DNA from: an uncultured Bacteroidota bacterium
GTDB lineage: Bacteria > Bacteroidota > Bacteroidia > Flavobacteriales > Flavobacteriaceae
Assembly: GCA_902523665.1 (NCBI GenBank)
Contig: CABZAD010000006.1
Span: forward strand, 1 to 64,000
Length of the DNA stretch: 64,000 nt
Direction of reading: 5' to 3'
Shown piece by piece: positions 43,733 to 51,866 of the stretch. The notes below the pieces were generated by a model. It did no database searches. It was not told where the DNA came from and saw only the letters and a list, made by a program, of their open reading frames with translations. Position 1 is the stretch's first letter, and every line of letters begins with the position of its first letter. The position numbers and the translations under genes are program-made.

Positions 43733-43740
43733 CTTTAAAC

Positions 43741-43792
43741 AGAGGAAGGATTTGACTGATTGCAACCTCTTAAAAAAATTGCTAAAGCAGTA
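43741..43792 (+). ncRNA. SAM-II-type riboswitch aptamer upstream of metK
   Basis: P1 AGAGG/CCTCT (43741-43745/43766-43770), conserved GATTTgAC..ATTGCAA..GCTAAAg, pseudoknot ACTG (43755-43758)/CAGT (43788-43791); followed by metK. Confidence 0.82.
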
Positions 43793-43839
43793 ATTCTTTT
43801 ACCTGCAATCATTCACTTTTTTTCTCAGAAATCTATTTT

Positions 43840-46364: not shown

Positions 46365-47330
46365 TTGAAAGATGATTTAAAAAAGATATTAATTGAAGAT
46401 TTTGAATCCTCATCTGGTAAGAAACTTCAAAATCTTAAATTAAGCTATCAATTTTTTGGGAAAAGATTTGGAACTGCTCCAATTATTCTTATTAATCATG
46501 CATTAACTGGAAATTCTATAGTATCTGGAAAGGACGGATGGTGGAGTGAAATTGTTGGAATAAATAGGGCAATTGATCTAAATAAATTTACTGTGCTTTG
46601 TATTAATATTCCAGGAAATGGGTTTAATGAAGAAAACTTTAATTTCAGCATTGAATTAGACTTAGGAGATGTAGCACATATTTTTGTTAAGGCTTTAAAT
46701 AAATTAAAAATTTCAAAATTATATGCTATAATCGGTGGATCAATTGGAGGATGTTTAACATGGGAGATGGCTGCAATAAAAAATGATATTGCAGAGAAGA
46801 TTATTCCTGTAGCTTCGGATTGGAAAGCAAATGATTGGTTAATAGCAAATACTTTTTTACAAGATAGAATTTTAGAAAATTCAAAAAATCCTATAGGAGA
46901 TGCAAGAATTCATGCAATGACATTCTACAGAACACCTGAGTCTCTTAATCAAAGATTCACGCGATCTAAGAATATTGAAAAAGGAATGTATAATGTTGAA
47001 TCATGGCTCGATCACCATGCGATAAAACTTAATCAAAGGTTTAGCCTTAACTCTTATAAATTTTTAAATAAGCTTTTAAGATCTACTGATATTACAAGAG
47101 ACGATTCAATATTAGAGTCAAAAATTATGCCTTCAAAATCAGAGATTCATATAATTTCAGTTGATTCAGATATTTTTTTCTTACCTCATGAAGATAGAAT
47201 CACTACTCAAAGGCTCAAAAAACAAAAAGTTAAAATCAAAAATCATGTGATAGAATCAATTCATGGTCATGATGCATTTTTAATTGAAACAAAACAAATT
47301 TCGGATATCTTTACTAAAATTTTAACATAA
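46365..47330 (+). CDS. metX: Homoserine O-acetyltransferase family alpha/beta hydrolase
   Basis: LINHALTGNS, AIIGGSIGGCLTWEM, IHGHDAFLIE; TTG start. Confidence 0.88.
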   Translation: MKDDLKKILIEDFESSSGKKLQNLKLSYQFFGKRFGTAPIILINHALTGNSIVSGKDGWWSEIVGINRAIDLNKFTVLCINIPGNGFNEENFNFSIELDLGDVAHIFVKALNKLKISKLYAIIGGSIGGCLTWEMAAIKNDIAEKIIPVASDWKANDWLIANTFLQDRILENSKNPIGDARIHAMTFYRTPESLNQRFTRSKNIEKGMYNVESWLDHHAIKLNQRFSLNSYKFLNKLLRSTDITRDDSILESKIMPSKSEIHIISVDSDIFFLPHEDRITTQRLKKQKVKIKNHVIESIHGHDAFLIETKQISDIFTKILT

Positions 47331-47758
47331 TGGCAATTTATTTAGACAGAATTAATGACAAGTATTTATTTGAACTTTCAAATGAAAATGGACATAAAGT
47401 TTTACTGGATCGAAAATATTCTCAAGATTATAATGTACAAGGTGCAAGTCCTATGGAGCTTTTACTAATGGGAGTTGCTGGTTGTAGTAGTATTGATGTT
47501 ATATCAATATTAGAAAAACAAAAGCTTGACCCAGATTCATATAAAATGGAGGTTGAAGGGGAAAGAGAGTCTAAACCAGGAAAACCATGGAAAAAAATAC
47601 ATGTCAAGTTATATATTGAGGGAAATATTCCTAGTAGTAAAATTGTTCGTGCCGCAGCGTTGAGTTTTGATAAATATTGTTCAGTTTCAAAGAACCTTGA
47701 GAAGTCAACTTTAATTGAGCATTCAATTTATCTCAACGGTTCCTTAATTAAAAAATAG
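47330..47758 (+). CDS. OsmC family protein
   Basis: GASPMELLLMGVAGCSSIDVISIL, KYCSVSKNLEKS. Confidence 0.9.
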   Translation: MAIYLDRINDKYLFELSNENGHKVLLDRKYSQDYNVQGASPMELLLMGVAGCSSIDVISILEKQKLDPDSYKMEVEGERESKPGKPWKKIHVKLYIEGNIPSSKIVRAAALSFDKYCSVSKNLEKSTLIEHSIYLNGSLIKK

Positions 47759-47767
47759 GCTAAAAAG

Positions 47768-47798
47768 TTTGTTTTTGTTGATACCTATTATACTTTTG
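47768..47798 (+). promoter_or_regulatory. Bacteroidota-type promoter of the pheA leader
   Basis: TTTG (47768-47771) - N19 - TACTTTTG (47791-47798), exact TAnnTTTG. Confidence 0.65.
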
Positions 47799-47804
47799 TA
47801 AATT

Positions 47805-47870
47805 ATGTTGAACAATTTTAATTTTTATTTTAATTCTTATTTCTACTTCTTAGATAAGAAGGCAGGATAA
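47805..47870 (+). CDS. Phe/Tyr-rich leader peptide (MLNNFNFYFNSYFYFLDKKAG), 21 aa
   Basis: 5 Phe and 3 Tyr codons in 21, ending at TAA 47868-47870, between a promoter and an intrinsic terminator upstream of pheA. Confidence 0.82.
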   Translation: MLNNFNFYFNSYFYFLDKKAG

Positions 47871-47925
47871 TTATGTAATTAAATATTAAAATATTATAGT
47901 CCTGTCAAATCAGGACTTTTTTTTT
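47863..47925 (+). promoter_or_regulatory. Transcription attenuator: antiterminator (CAGGA/TCCTG) versus terminator
   Basis: CAGGA (47863-47867) at the leader stop codon is complementary to TCCTG (47900-47904) and repeats the 3' terminator strand CAGGAC. Confidence 0.8.
47898..47925 (+). terminator. Intrinsic terminator of the phe/tyr attenuator
   Basis: AGTCCTG-TCAAAT-CAGGACT then uninterrupted T-run to 47925, two bases before the pheA ATG. Confidence 0.9.
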
Positions 47926-47927
47926 AT

Positions 47928-48740
47928 ATGAAAGTATCTATTCAAGGAGTCAAAGGATCATTTCACCATCTGGTGACTGCTAACTATTTTAGTTCGTTCG
48001 AACTAAATGAATGTTCAACTTTTGATATGCTTGTAAAGTCAATCATTGATGAAGATTCTGAATATGGGGTAATGGCTATTGAAAATTCTATTGCTGGATC
48101 TATACTTCCTAATTATGCTTTAATTGATGAATATAATCTGACAATTACTGGAGAATACAGTCTTAGTATTGATCATAATTTAATGTGTCTTCCTGGACAG
48201 AGTATTGATAAAATTGACGAAGTCCATTCTCATCCAATGGCATTACTTCAGTGTACTAAATTTTTTACTAAATATCCTAATATAAAGTTAATTGAGAGTG
48301 TTGATACAGCCTTATTTGCAAAAAAAATCAGTGAAAATAAAATTACTGGAGTTGGAGCAATAGGTAGTAAAGAAGCTGCAAAGATATATAATTTAGAAAT
48401 TTTAAATTCTTCAATACAAACAATTAAAAATAATATGACAAGATTTGTTATAGTTGAAAAAAATAAAAAACATATATCGAACTTTAATAAAGCTGCGCTT
48501 AAATTTATACTTGATCACAAAAGAGGTAGTCTAGCATCTGTATTGAATATGATGAGTGACTGTAACTTGAATCTTACAAAAATTCAATCTCTGCCAGTGA
48601 TTAAGATGCCTGGTAAGTATGCTTTCTTTGTTGATATCACTTTTGATTCAATTGAAAATTATCAAAAAGCTATTAAGATTATTGATCTTATGGCTCAAGA
48701 GTTTAAAATACTCGGAGAATATAAAGATCAAAAATTATGA
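47928..48740 (+). CDS. pheA: Prephenate dehydratase
   Basis: VSIQGVKGSFHHLVTANYF, YGVMAIENSIAGSI, HPMALLQC, ACT-domain region DHKRGSLASVLNMMSDCNLNLTKIQSLP. Confidence 0.95.
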   Translation: MKVSIQGVKGSFHHLVTANYFSSFELNECSTFDMLVKSIIDEDSEYGVMAIENSIAGSILPNYALIDEYNLTITGEYSLSIDHNLMCLPGQSIDKIDEVHSHPMALLQCTKFFTKYPNIKLIESVDTALFAKKISENKITGVGAIGSKEAAKIYNLEILNSSIQTIKNNMTRFVIVEKNKKHISNFNKAALKFILDHKRGSLASVLNMMSDCNLNLTKIQSLPVIKMPGKYAFFVDITFDSIENYQKAIKIIDLMAQEFKILGEYKDQKL

Positions 48741-49585
48741 AAGTTGGTATAGTAGGTTTAGGATTAATAGGAGGTTCGATAGCACTTAAATTGAAAGATT
48801 TATTTGATAACCTAACCATATATGGGTATGATATTGATCATGAATCAATTAGCTACACAATTAAAAATAAAATTATTGATGCAAAATATGATGAAGATCT
48901 ACTAAATGAATTAGATTATATATTTCTTGCTATACCTGTTGAATCAATCAAAAAACAACTTCAAAATTACTTGGATAAGATTTCAGAAAAAACTTTGATA
49001 ATTGATCTTGGTTCAACAAAGTTCCAAATATCTAATTCAGTTAAGGATCACAAGAAAAGAAAGAATTATCTTGCTGCCCATCCGATTGCTGGTACAGAAT
49101 TTTCAGGACCTGGTTCAGCCTCAAAGGATTTATTTAAAAATAAAGTTATGATTCTATGTGATACTAAAAAAACTGATAGTAATTTATTATTAAATGCTAA
49201 AAAAATTATTGAATCTATTGGTATGATTATTAAAATTATGGATTCAAAAGAACATGATAGACAAATAGCATATGTGTCTCACTTATCGCATATTTCATCA
49301 TTTATGTTAGGTAAAACAGTAATGGATAAAGAAGATGATGAACAAGCAATTTATAATATGGCTGGTAGTGGATTTGAATCAACAGTAAGATTAGCAAAAA
49401 GTTCACCTGAAATGTGGTCTTCAATCTTTGTTGAGAATAAAAAAAATATTATTGAGTCTCTTGATGAATACATCTCAAATATTAATAATTTTAAAAAATT
49501 AATTGAGAAGAGCGATAAAAAAACTCTTAATAATGAGATGAGAAGAATTAATGGGATTAAGGAAATATTAAATGGAATAAAATAA
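48737..49585 (+). CDS. tyrA: Prephenate dehydrogenase
   Basis: VGIVGLGLIGGSIALKLK, IDLGSTKFQI, AAHPIAGTEFSGPGSA. Confidence 0.94.
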   Translation: MKVGIVGLGLIGGSIALKLKDLFDNLTIYGYDIDHESISYTIKNKIIDAKYDEDLLNELDYIFLAIPVESIKKQLQNYLDKISEKTLIIDLGSTKFQISNSVKDHKKRKNYLAAHPIAGTEFSGPGSASKDLFKNKVMILCDTKKTDSNLLLNAKKIIESIGMIIKIMDSKEHDRQIAYVSHLSHISSFMLGKTVMDKEDDEQAIYNMAGSGFESTVRLAKSSPEMWSSIFVENKKNIIESLDEYISNINNFKKLIEKSDKKTLNNEMRRINGIKEILNGIK

Positions 49586-49591
49586 ATAATT

Positions 49592-50674
49592 ATGGAAAAC
49601 AAAAATGAATATAGAAACTGGCTAAATCAAATGAATCTTGAACATCCGATAGTAATAGCTGGTCCATGTAGTGCTGAGACTGAGGAACAGGTTCTAAAAA
49701 TTGCTAATCAATTAAAAGAAAGTGATGTAACTGCTTATAGAGCTGGAATATGGAAGCCTAGGACTAGACCAGGAATGTTTGAAGGGGTGGGGGCTATTGG
49801 ATTGAAGTGGTTGCAGAAAGTTAAAGAGGAAACTGGGCTTATGATTGCTACTGAAGTTGCCAATTCTGTTCATGTTGATCTTGCTTTAGAACATGATTTA
49901 GATATATTATGGATAGGAGCCAGATCCACGGTCAGTCCATTTATAGTTCAGGAAATTGCAGATGCACTTAAAGGAACAGATAAAATAGTTTTAATCAAAA
50001 ATCCTGTGAACCCCGATTTATCCTTGTGGATGGGTGGGCTGGAAAGAATTTATTCTGCTGATATAAAAAATATTGGAGTAATTCATAGAGGATTTTCATC
50101 TTACGATAAATCAAAATATAGAAATAACCCAGAATGGCAGATTGCCGTTGAATTTCAAAATAATTTTCCAGACATCCCATTAATATGTGACCCTTCTCAC
50201 ATTGCTGGAAGAAGAGATCTAATTTTTGACTTGAGTCAAACATCGCTTGACTTAAACTATGACGGACTAATGATTGAATCTCACTGGGATCCAGATAATG
50301 CGTGGAGTGACGCAGCTCAACAAGTTACTCCAAATCGTTTAATTGAAATAATGAAAGACCTTAAGATTAGAGATAAAACTTCCCAGGGAGAGGATTACCA
50401 AAACAAACTCAATAATCTAAGATCACAGATAGATTCAGCTGATCAAAATTTATTGACAACTCTTGGAAAGAGAATGGAAGTTGCCAAAGGAATTGGAAAA
50501 CTTAAATCAGAAAATAATGTAGCAATTCTTCAGAACAAAAGGTGGAATGAAATATTAGGGAAGATGATTTTAGATGGAGAAGACCATGGGTTAAGTGAAG
50601 AATTTATTTTAAGAATTTTCAAAGCAATTCATCAAGAGTCAATTAACAACCAAAAAAAAATATTAAATAAATAA
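49592..50674 (+). CDS. Bifunctional 3-deoxy-7-phosphoheptulonate synthase/chorismate mutase
   Basis: IVIAGPCSAETEEQVLKIANQL, DPSHIAGRRD, C-terminal chorismate mutase (LRSQIDSADQNLLTTLGKRMEVAKGIGKLK). Confidence 0.94.
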   Translation: MENKNEYRNWLNQMNLEHPIVIAGPCSAETEEQVLKIANQLKESDVTAYRAGIWKPRTRPGMFEGVGAIGLKWLQKVKEETGLMIATEVANSVHVDLALEHDLDILWIGARSTVSPFIVQEIADALKGTDKIVLIKNPVNPDLSLWMGGLERIYSADIKNIGVIHRGFSSYDKSKYRNNPEWQIAVEFQNNFPDIPLICDPSHIAGRRDLIFDLSQTSLDLNYDGLMIESHWDPDNAWSDAAQQVTPNRLIEIMKDLKIRDKTSQGEDYQNKLNNLRSQIDSADQNLLTTLGKRMEVAKGIGKLKSENNVAILQNKRWNEILGKMILDGEDHGLSEEFILRIFKAIHQESINNQKKILNK

Positions 50675-50684
50675 AAACAGGAAA

Positions 50685-51866
50685 ATGTTATCAGATAAAA
50701 TAAATTCTTTACCAATCTCTCAAACGGTTGCAATGACAGCTAAAGCTCATGATTTAAAAAATCAAGGTATTGATGTAATTACTTTGAGTGCAGGAGAACC
50801 CGATTTTAATATCCCAGATTACATTAAAGATGCAGCCGTAAACGCTATTAATGAAAACTACCATAAATATTCACCAGTTGATGGATTCTTAGACCTAAAA
50901 AAAGCCATATGTAAAAAGTTTAAAAGAGATAATAATTTAGATTATGATGCAGATCAAATTGTAGTTTCAACAGGAGCAAAACAATCCATTGCCAATGTTT
51001 GTATGTCTTTAATAAATAAGGGTGATGAGGTTATAATACCTACTCCTTACTGGGTAAGTTACAGTGCAATGGTCTCTCTTGCTGACGGAATTTCTGTTTT
51101 TGTAAACCCCAATAAAAATTCCAATTATAAAGTGACTGCAAAACAGCTTGAATCTGTAATTACGGATAAAACAAAAATGGTTATGTTCAACTCTCCTAAT
51201 AACCCAAGCGGATCAGTTTTTACAAAAGAAGAATATATAGAGTTTTCTAAGGTGTTAATGAAATATCCGAAAGTTATAGTTGTTTCAGATGAAATTTATG
51301 AGCATATTAATTATGGAGTTGAAACTGTAAGCTTTGCATCTTTACCAGGAATGTATGAAAGAACAGTCACAGTAAATGGTATATCAAAAGCATTTGCAAT
51401 GACAGGCTGGAGAATAGGTTACCTTGGAGCTTCCAAGACTTTAGCTAAAGCATGTAACAAAATGCAAGGTCAAATAACTAGTGGTGCAAATTGTATTGCT
51501 CAAAGAGCTGCTATAACTGCTTTAGAAGAGTCACCTGAAAGAATAAAATACATGGTTGATGAATTTAAAATAAGGCGTAATTTGATCATAGATCTTGTAA
51601 ATCAAATTAACGGTTTTAAAGTTAGCCAACCACCATCAGGTGCCTTTTATATTTTTCCAGAGGTCTCTGAACTATTTGGTAAGAAATTTGGAGGCCAATT
51701 AATAAATAATGCAAATGATTTATCAATGTTAATTCTTGAAAAAGCTCATGTTGCAACTGTCCCAGGAGATGCTTTTGGATATCCTGAATGCATAAGGATT
51801 TCATATTCTGCATCTAGAGAACATATAAAAGAAGCAATAATTAGGATTAAAGATTTATTATCTTGA
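50685..51866 (+). CDS. Pyridoxal-phosphate aminotransferase class I/II (aspartate/aromatic aminotransferase-like)
   Basis: LSAGEPDFNIPDYIKDAA, FNSPNNPSGSVF, VNGISKAFAMTGWRIGYLG. Confidence 0.94.
   Translation: MLSDKINSLPISQTVAMTAKAHDLKNQGIDVITLSAGEPDFNIPDYIKDAAVNAINENYHKYSPVDGFLDLKKAICKKFKRDNNLDYDADQIVVSTGAKQSIANVCMSLINKGDEVIIPTPYWVSYSAMVSLADGISVFVNPNKNSNYKVTAKQLESVITDKTKMVMFNSPNNPSGSVFTKEEYIEFSKVLMKYPKVIVVSDEIYEHINYGVETVSFASLPGMYERTVTVNGISKAFAMTGWRIGYLGASKTLAKACNKMQGQITSGANCIAQRAAITALEESPERIKYMVDEFKIRRNLIIDLVNQINGFKVSQPPSGAFYIFPEVSELFGKKFGGQLINNANDLSMLILEKAHVATVPGDAFGYPECIRISYSASREHIKEAIIRIKDLLS

Follow-up and report, generated by a model that had tools for sequence, protein, structure and literature searches.

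A predicted Phe/Tyr leader-peptide attenuator upstream of pheA in Flavobacteriaceae and other Bacteroidia

Our analysis indicates with high confidence that the DNA directly ahead of pheA in the window, by which we mean the whole 64,000-nucleotide stretch analysed here, encodes a ribosome-mediated transcription attenuator. Based on sequence comparison and folding models, we predict that the supply of Phe and Tyr sets the transcription of pheA, tyrA, a DAHP synthase gene and an aminotransferase gene. Comparison and computation establish the parts of this element, their conservation, a three-way covariation and the geometry. The arrangement would represent textbook leader-peptide attenuation of the genes for aromatic amino acid synthesis in most of the Flavobacteriaceae sampled and in many other Bacteroidia. 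Members of this class are abundant in sea, soil and gut, and this kind of control has been little studied in them.

Results

Leader, antiterminator and terminator in the window

The promoter, leader, terminator and operon genes described here lie on the forward strand. An earlier note on this DNA had proposed a 21-codon ORF with five Phe and three Tyr codons, and the sequence agrees with it base for base. The ORF (47805-47870) encodes MLNNFNFYFNSYFYFLDKKAG, starting at the ATG of 47805-47807 and stopping at the TAA of 47868-47870. It is a short leader dense in the amino acids that the operon produces (8/21 codons F/Y). The sensor codons span 47817-47849, and the last of them, the Phe codon TTC at 47847-47849, lies 13 nt ahead of the proposed antiterminator, as the note had it. 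An intrinsic terminator, AGTCCTG-TCAAAT-CAGGACT followed by T8, occupies 47898-47925, with a 7-bp stem (47898-47917), a 6-nt loop (TCAAAT) and a T tract that ends at 47925. The two bases AT separate this tract from the pheA ATG at 47928, exactly the spacing that had been claimed. A terminator scan of 47000-48500 detected the same hairpin; its two matches are the two strands of this one structure, compared with 0.2 matches expected per shuffled region.

The antiterminator needed refinement. It had been described as CAGGA (47863-47867) paired with TCCTG (47900-47904), and both segments are present; the best pairing is longer, joining 47861-47868 to 47899-47906 and reaching into the terminator loop. 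The 5′ strand (region 2), GGCAGGAT, overlaps the final codons of the leader and reaches the first base of its stop codon, and the 3′ strand (region 3), GTCCTGTC, is common to the 5′ arm and the loop of the terminator. The TAAT (47868-47871) and ATTA (47893-47896) through which the helix was thought to extend are also found where the note placed them. When the window leader was folded with a ribosome held at the last Phe codon, an 8-bp helix (47861-47868/47899-47906) formed within a fold of -11.6 kcal/mol, and with a ribosome at the stop codon, a terminator of -10.1 kcal/mol formed. The ribosome-free MFE fold of the leader is more stable than dinucleotide shuffles (z = -3.4) and contains a self-pairing of the leader (region 1:2) across 47815-47892, with outer arms at 47815-47822 and 47885-47892. 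Complementarity between regions 1 and 2 exceeds that of permuted partners family-wide, and in the window's own sequence the sub-window examined gave no support for the 1:2 protector helix. The terminator loop TCAAAT (47905-47910) was invariant in 21 of 23 loci of the genus (L001-L023). This conservation may reflect the pairing of the first loop bases with the antiterminator.

The F/Y richness of this single leader ORF is not significant alone. Of the 742 ORFs in the window that start with ATG and span 12-45 codons, 12 had at least eight F/Y codons, and an equally F/Y-rich ORF arose in 185 of 5000 dinucleotide shuffles of the T-rich gap (47759-47927). Because such richness is unremarkable in T-rich DNA, the significance of the leader rests on its conservation and geometry. 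A chance F/Y ORF was weighed in light of the shuffle result and is ruled out by conservation in relatives.

Conservation across relatives

Relatives were anchored on PheA, so the leader itself was not the search query. In the genus of the window, the leader, its spacing and the terminator were found at 23/23 pheA loci. The terminator was single-copy in 23 of 25 genomes of the genus, with one such terminator per genome, and no second copies of the module were found in the genus. Among named organisms, Cryomorphaceae bacterium MED-G11 is the closest, with a PheA that is 77% identical. Further afield, an F/Y-rich leader and a terminator accompany nearly every locus of Flavobacteriaceae and of other Flavobacteriales families, including 77 of 80 named Flavobacteriaceae genomes; of the other three, the first is cut off by a contig end, the second has had repeats inserted, and in the third no leader could be recognised within the sequence read. 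The same combination occurs at 31 distinct loci of other Bacteroidia, and an F/Y leader with terminator is missing in several families of this class. Elsewhere in the phylum, 26 PDT loci from other classes could be located; they double as a negative control for the leader finder, and an F/Y leader with terminator was found at none of them. The earlier note had asked whether relatives keep the terminator without an F/Y-rich ORF. They do not, as leader and terminator are conserved together in genus, family and class.

An apparent absence at two loci (L062 and L080) proved not to be real, the terminator (and at L080 the leader end as well) lying further upstream behind inserted sequence. At L140, the leader was not found. 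In Gelidibacter-like genomes, repeats (TTATGAGTTCGAAGAACGAAATAAAATGAACTAGTTGAACTAATCCCGC...) are inserted between the leader terminator and pheA (L080:85-480; also the upstream region of L256). Separately, the reduced symbiont-like genomes L143-L146 (0.6 Mb) and L218 (0.5 Mb) kept the genes of the pheA operon, and no F/Y leader with terminator was found in them, a pattern that would fit a loss of control over the supply of aromatic amino acids.

Covariation of leader and terminator

The 3′ end of the leader pairs with the 5′ arm of the terminator, and both co-vary through at least seven sequence classes (CAGGAY/RTCCTG, CGAGRC/GYCTCG, CGGGAY/RTCCCG, GGAAC/GTTCC, GCGGTC/GACCGC and others). Compensatory stem changes, which the earlier note had suggested seeking, are present among the relatives. 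To guard against circularity, the leader window was picked solely by its distance from the last F/Y codon. The pairing score of leaders with their own terminators was 10.29 versus 7.72 (sd 0.13) with permuted partners, a score equalled in 0 of 2000 permutations, and the excess stands separately in Flavobacteriales and in other Bacteroidia. The antiterminator class assigned from the leader alone was the terminator class in 137 of 198 cases, where permutation gave 38 as the expectation and 56 at most; most of the non-matching classes are one G-U change apart. These permutation and class-agreement tests do not remove relatedness, so the PheA tree was used. The terminator class changed at least 25 times on this tree, and in independent pairs the antiterminator shifted with the terminator or stayed and never moved against it, although no single contrast is significant alone, with too few pairs in each. 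The relatives conserve both a terminator between the leader and the first structural gene (47898-47925 in the window) and, on its 5′ arm, a mutually exclusive antiterminator with compensatory changes.

Spacing and ribosome-masked folding

Natural variation among the leaders serves as a ruler for ribosome geometry, in that the end of the F/Y run is nearly fixed and the stop codon drifts. In 131 leaders, the F/Y frequency was 96-99% at -24 to -16 nt from the start of the antiterminator; it dropped to 76% at -15 to -13 and to 18% at -12 to -10, and did not exceed 3% between -9 and +5. The median distance from the last F/Y codon to the antiterminator is 14 nt (sd 2.0), the run filling the leader to 13-16 nt ahead of it, and for the stop codon this distance has an sd of 8.0 nt.

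Folding was performed on 240 leaders with the A-site codon and the bases following it masked, using a footprint of about +12 to +13. A footprint of +13 from the A-site codon is general knowledge from E. coli. The antiterminator formed in 223/240 leaders (93%) when the A site held the last F/Y codon and in 5/240 (2%) when it held the stop codon; the full leader RNA free of ribosomes formed the terminator in 237/240. When the stall site was scanned along the leader, the antiterminator appeared in 93-100% for stalls no later than the last F/Y codon, and in 58, 18 and 4% for stalls at +1, +2 and +3 codons. The logic put forward in the earlier note, in which a stalled ribosome frees the antiterminator and a ribosome at the stop codon covers it, holds in these modelled folds of 240 leaders. 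At equilibrium, most sequences favor the terminator even with a stalled ribosome, so the model needs kinetic folding. In the ribosome-free state, the antiterminator still forms ahead of region 4 synthesis in 72% of leaders, and tight shut-off without translation is accordingly not predicted.

The same hairpin could act mainly on translation by hiding the pheA start site unless the antiterminator forms. The distance from the stem end to the pheA ATG is exactly 10 nt in 23/23 genus loci, as such masking would favor, and mRNA structure tunes initiation in Flavobacterium (PMC6847099). However, the stem runs into a strong T8 tract, and outside this genus stem and pheA are 5-196 nt apart (median 20), which in many loci is too far for direct masking. 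We consider mainly translational control improbable.

Amino acids sensed by the leader

At least two Phe and at least two Tyr codons are present in 240/240 leaders, and the sensor ends with a Phe codon in 187 of them and with a Tyr codon in 53. This codon content, together with the downstream pheA, tyrA and DAHP synthase-chorismate mutase genes, backs the joint sensing of Phe and Tyr that had been suggested from the window alone, and we take joint aromatic sensing to be the natural, supported reading of these sequences. Trp codons also recur in the F/Y run of many lineages (for example, YFWN and NNWFYFFF). Within the sensor segment they account for 88 of the 1178 codons other than F/Y, versus 14 of 2039 outside it (odds ratio 11.7; p = 8e-26, with codons lacking independence), and the PheA tree shows at least 24 changes between their presence and absence. 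No Trp codons were found in leaders of the window's genus. We hypothesize that some lineages may sense Trp as well.

What halts the ribosome in the F/Y run could, in principle, be the leader peptide itself. In such a TnaC-like arrest, the nascent peptide together with free Phe or Tyr would stall the ribosome, rather than uncharged tRNA. The RNA needs only a ribosome halted near the end of the F/Y run, and the same geometry would serve. Arrest peptides, however, keep specific residues, whereas these leader peptides vary freely beyond their F/Y density, and arrest by abundant Phe or Tyr has the wrong sign for a biosynthetic operon. We regard this alternative as very improbable.

Promoter and gene neighborhood

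Downstream of the leader, pheA, tyrA, the DAHP synthase-chorismate mutase gene, an aminotransferase gene and rsmG follow nearly without gaps. Prephenate dehydratase (pheA, 47928-48740; PF00800, 181.5 bits) is followed by prephenate dehydrogenase (tyrA, 48737-49585; NF006307 over cut-off, PF02153 and PF20463), the DAHP synthase-chorismate mutase fusion (49592-50674; PF00793 and PF01817) and a class I/II aminotransferase (50685-51866; PF00155), which is probably the aromatic-pathway enzyme of the operon. The operon is conserved, its order being pheA-aminotransferase-tyrA-DAHP synthase in most relatives for which 6-kb stretches were available.

A candidate promoter sits between the osmC stop (47758) and the leader ATG. 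TTTG at 47768-47771 is a putative -33 element, of the kind that belongs to the consensus of Bacteroidetes promoters; it lies 19 nt ahead of the -7 box and is kept in the genus. The box itself, TACTTTTG at 47791-47798, is conserved in the genus and fits the TAnnTTTG consensus of Bacteroidetes sigma-A promoters, which is placed at -12 to -5 (as given in PMC9723704). Since the box occupies these positions, transcription should start near 47803, two bases ahead of the leader ATG. The implied 5′ UTR is about 2 nt in the window, 2-5 nt in the genus and a median of 14 nt over all leaders. A -7 box was present at most 45 nt upstream of the leader ATG in 209/240 leaders compared with 13/240 on the reverse strand.

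Upstream lies a row formed by metK, an O-acetylhomoserine sulfhydrylase gene (metY), a metX-like gene and osmC. A SAM-II riboswitch (43736-43795; 80.8 bits, gathering score 44) stands at the head of this row, 44 nt ahead of metK. The MetX-like protein (46365-47330) has just 321 amino acids and scores 169 bits against an NCBIfam MetX cut-off of 331; because this is far under the cut-offs, its role as a homoserine acetyltransferase is uncertain. The terminator scan of 47000-48500 found no further terminator between osmC and pheA. The hairpin could be read as the ordinary terminator of this row, being the sole one found there, and the leader as a chance F/Y ORF in a T-rich spacer, where the F/Y richness of a single ORF is just mildly unusual. 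Yet a promoter box sits between osmC and the terminator, and the leader, its spacing and the antiterminator are conserved and covary across the class. Conservation in effect refutes this explanation, which we judge highly improbable; the pheA leader terminator may nevertheless also block read-through from the metK-metY-metX-osmC row.

Discussion

Taken together, these observations are best accommodated by an attenuator of the following kind. RNA polymerase would start near 47803, and a ribosome would load almost at the 5′ end of the transcript. With tRNA-Phe and tRNA-Tyr well charged, the ribosome would reach the stop codon and cover 47861-47868, so that the terminator (47898-47925) could fold and the transcript would end 2 nt ahead of pheA. 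If either charged tRNA is scarce, the ribosome is predicted to wait in the F/Y run and leave 47861-47868 free; this strand would then pair with 47899-47906 before the 3′ arm of the terminator exists, and the polymerase would read on. Since most relatives fold more stably into the terminator whenever the whole RNA is free, control is probably kinetic. We infer that the promoter is used, that the leader is translated and that the element responds to starvation. The scheme predicts terminated RNAs, a response to Phe and Tyr starvation and, in some lineages, sensing of Trp.

On a broader reading, to which we give even chances, this is an ancient attenuator of the Bacteroidia that reads Phe and Tyr always, and Trp in many lineages, into an operon holding the first step of the pathway. 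It would operate in a phylum that initiates translation without a Shine-Dalgarno sequence, and in this streamlined marine genus the transcript that carries it would be practically leaderless.

Some attenuators were reportedly predicted in Bacteroidetes/Chlorobi by Vitreschak and colleagues in 2004. A known system of similar design is the enterobacterial Phe leader (pheL; RF01859), which likewise has a Phe-rich leader, an antiterminator, a terminator and pheA downstream. It differs in that the window system has Tyr codons mixed in (and Trp codons too in many relatives), no Shine-Dalgarno sequence is expected, the leader transcript is nearly leaderless, and tyrA and DAHP synthase belong to the same operon. 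RF01859 is the best Rfam match of the window element, at 23.5 bits against a gathering score of 55, and gave no gathering-level match in 20 relatives. Bacteroid-trp RNA (RF01692; PMC2864571) is likewise a presumed leader attenuator in Bacteroidetes, but of the Trp operon, and had no match at the gathering threshold in the window, its own genome or the pheA leaders of 20 relatives. Filing the element under either Rfam family is ruled out by score. A metabolite riboswitch or T-box, to which the structured 5′ region might point, has a negligible probability, since no Rfam family matched the window element or 20 relatives at the gathering threshold (including the T-box leader model, run on the window and relatives) and the conserved features are F/Y codons and pairing.

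At genes of the shikimate pathway, Stav et al. (2019) predicted uORFs with a regulatory role that contain Phe and Tyr (PMC6429828); these are in other genomes according to the main text, and any kinship with the window leader would be conjectural. The leader set assembled here is material for a new Rfam family.

The closest precedent concerns the same gene and family. The earlier note had called the element unannotated, which stands for Rfam, where no family matched at threshold, but not for the literature, in which a structured 5′ element upstream of pheA is already reported for Flavobacterium psychrophilum (Guerin et al. 2021; PMC9723704). That element is described as conserved in other Flavobacteriaceae genera and without an Rfam hit, and the report sees strong signs of attenuation by leader peptides ahead of amino-acid operons (PMC9723704). 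The pheA element described there and that of the window are almost surely one and the same. The main text of that report contains neither a leader sequence nor sensor codons, and describes no covariation and no occurrence outside the family (PMC9723704). The type of mechanism is classical and the existence of a pheA 5′ element is partly known; what is new here is the sensor, the antiterminator, the covariation, the geometry and the class-wide distribution.
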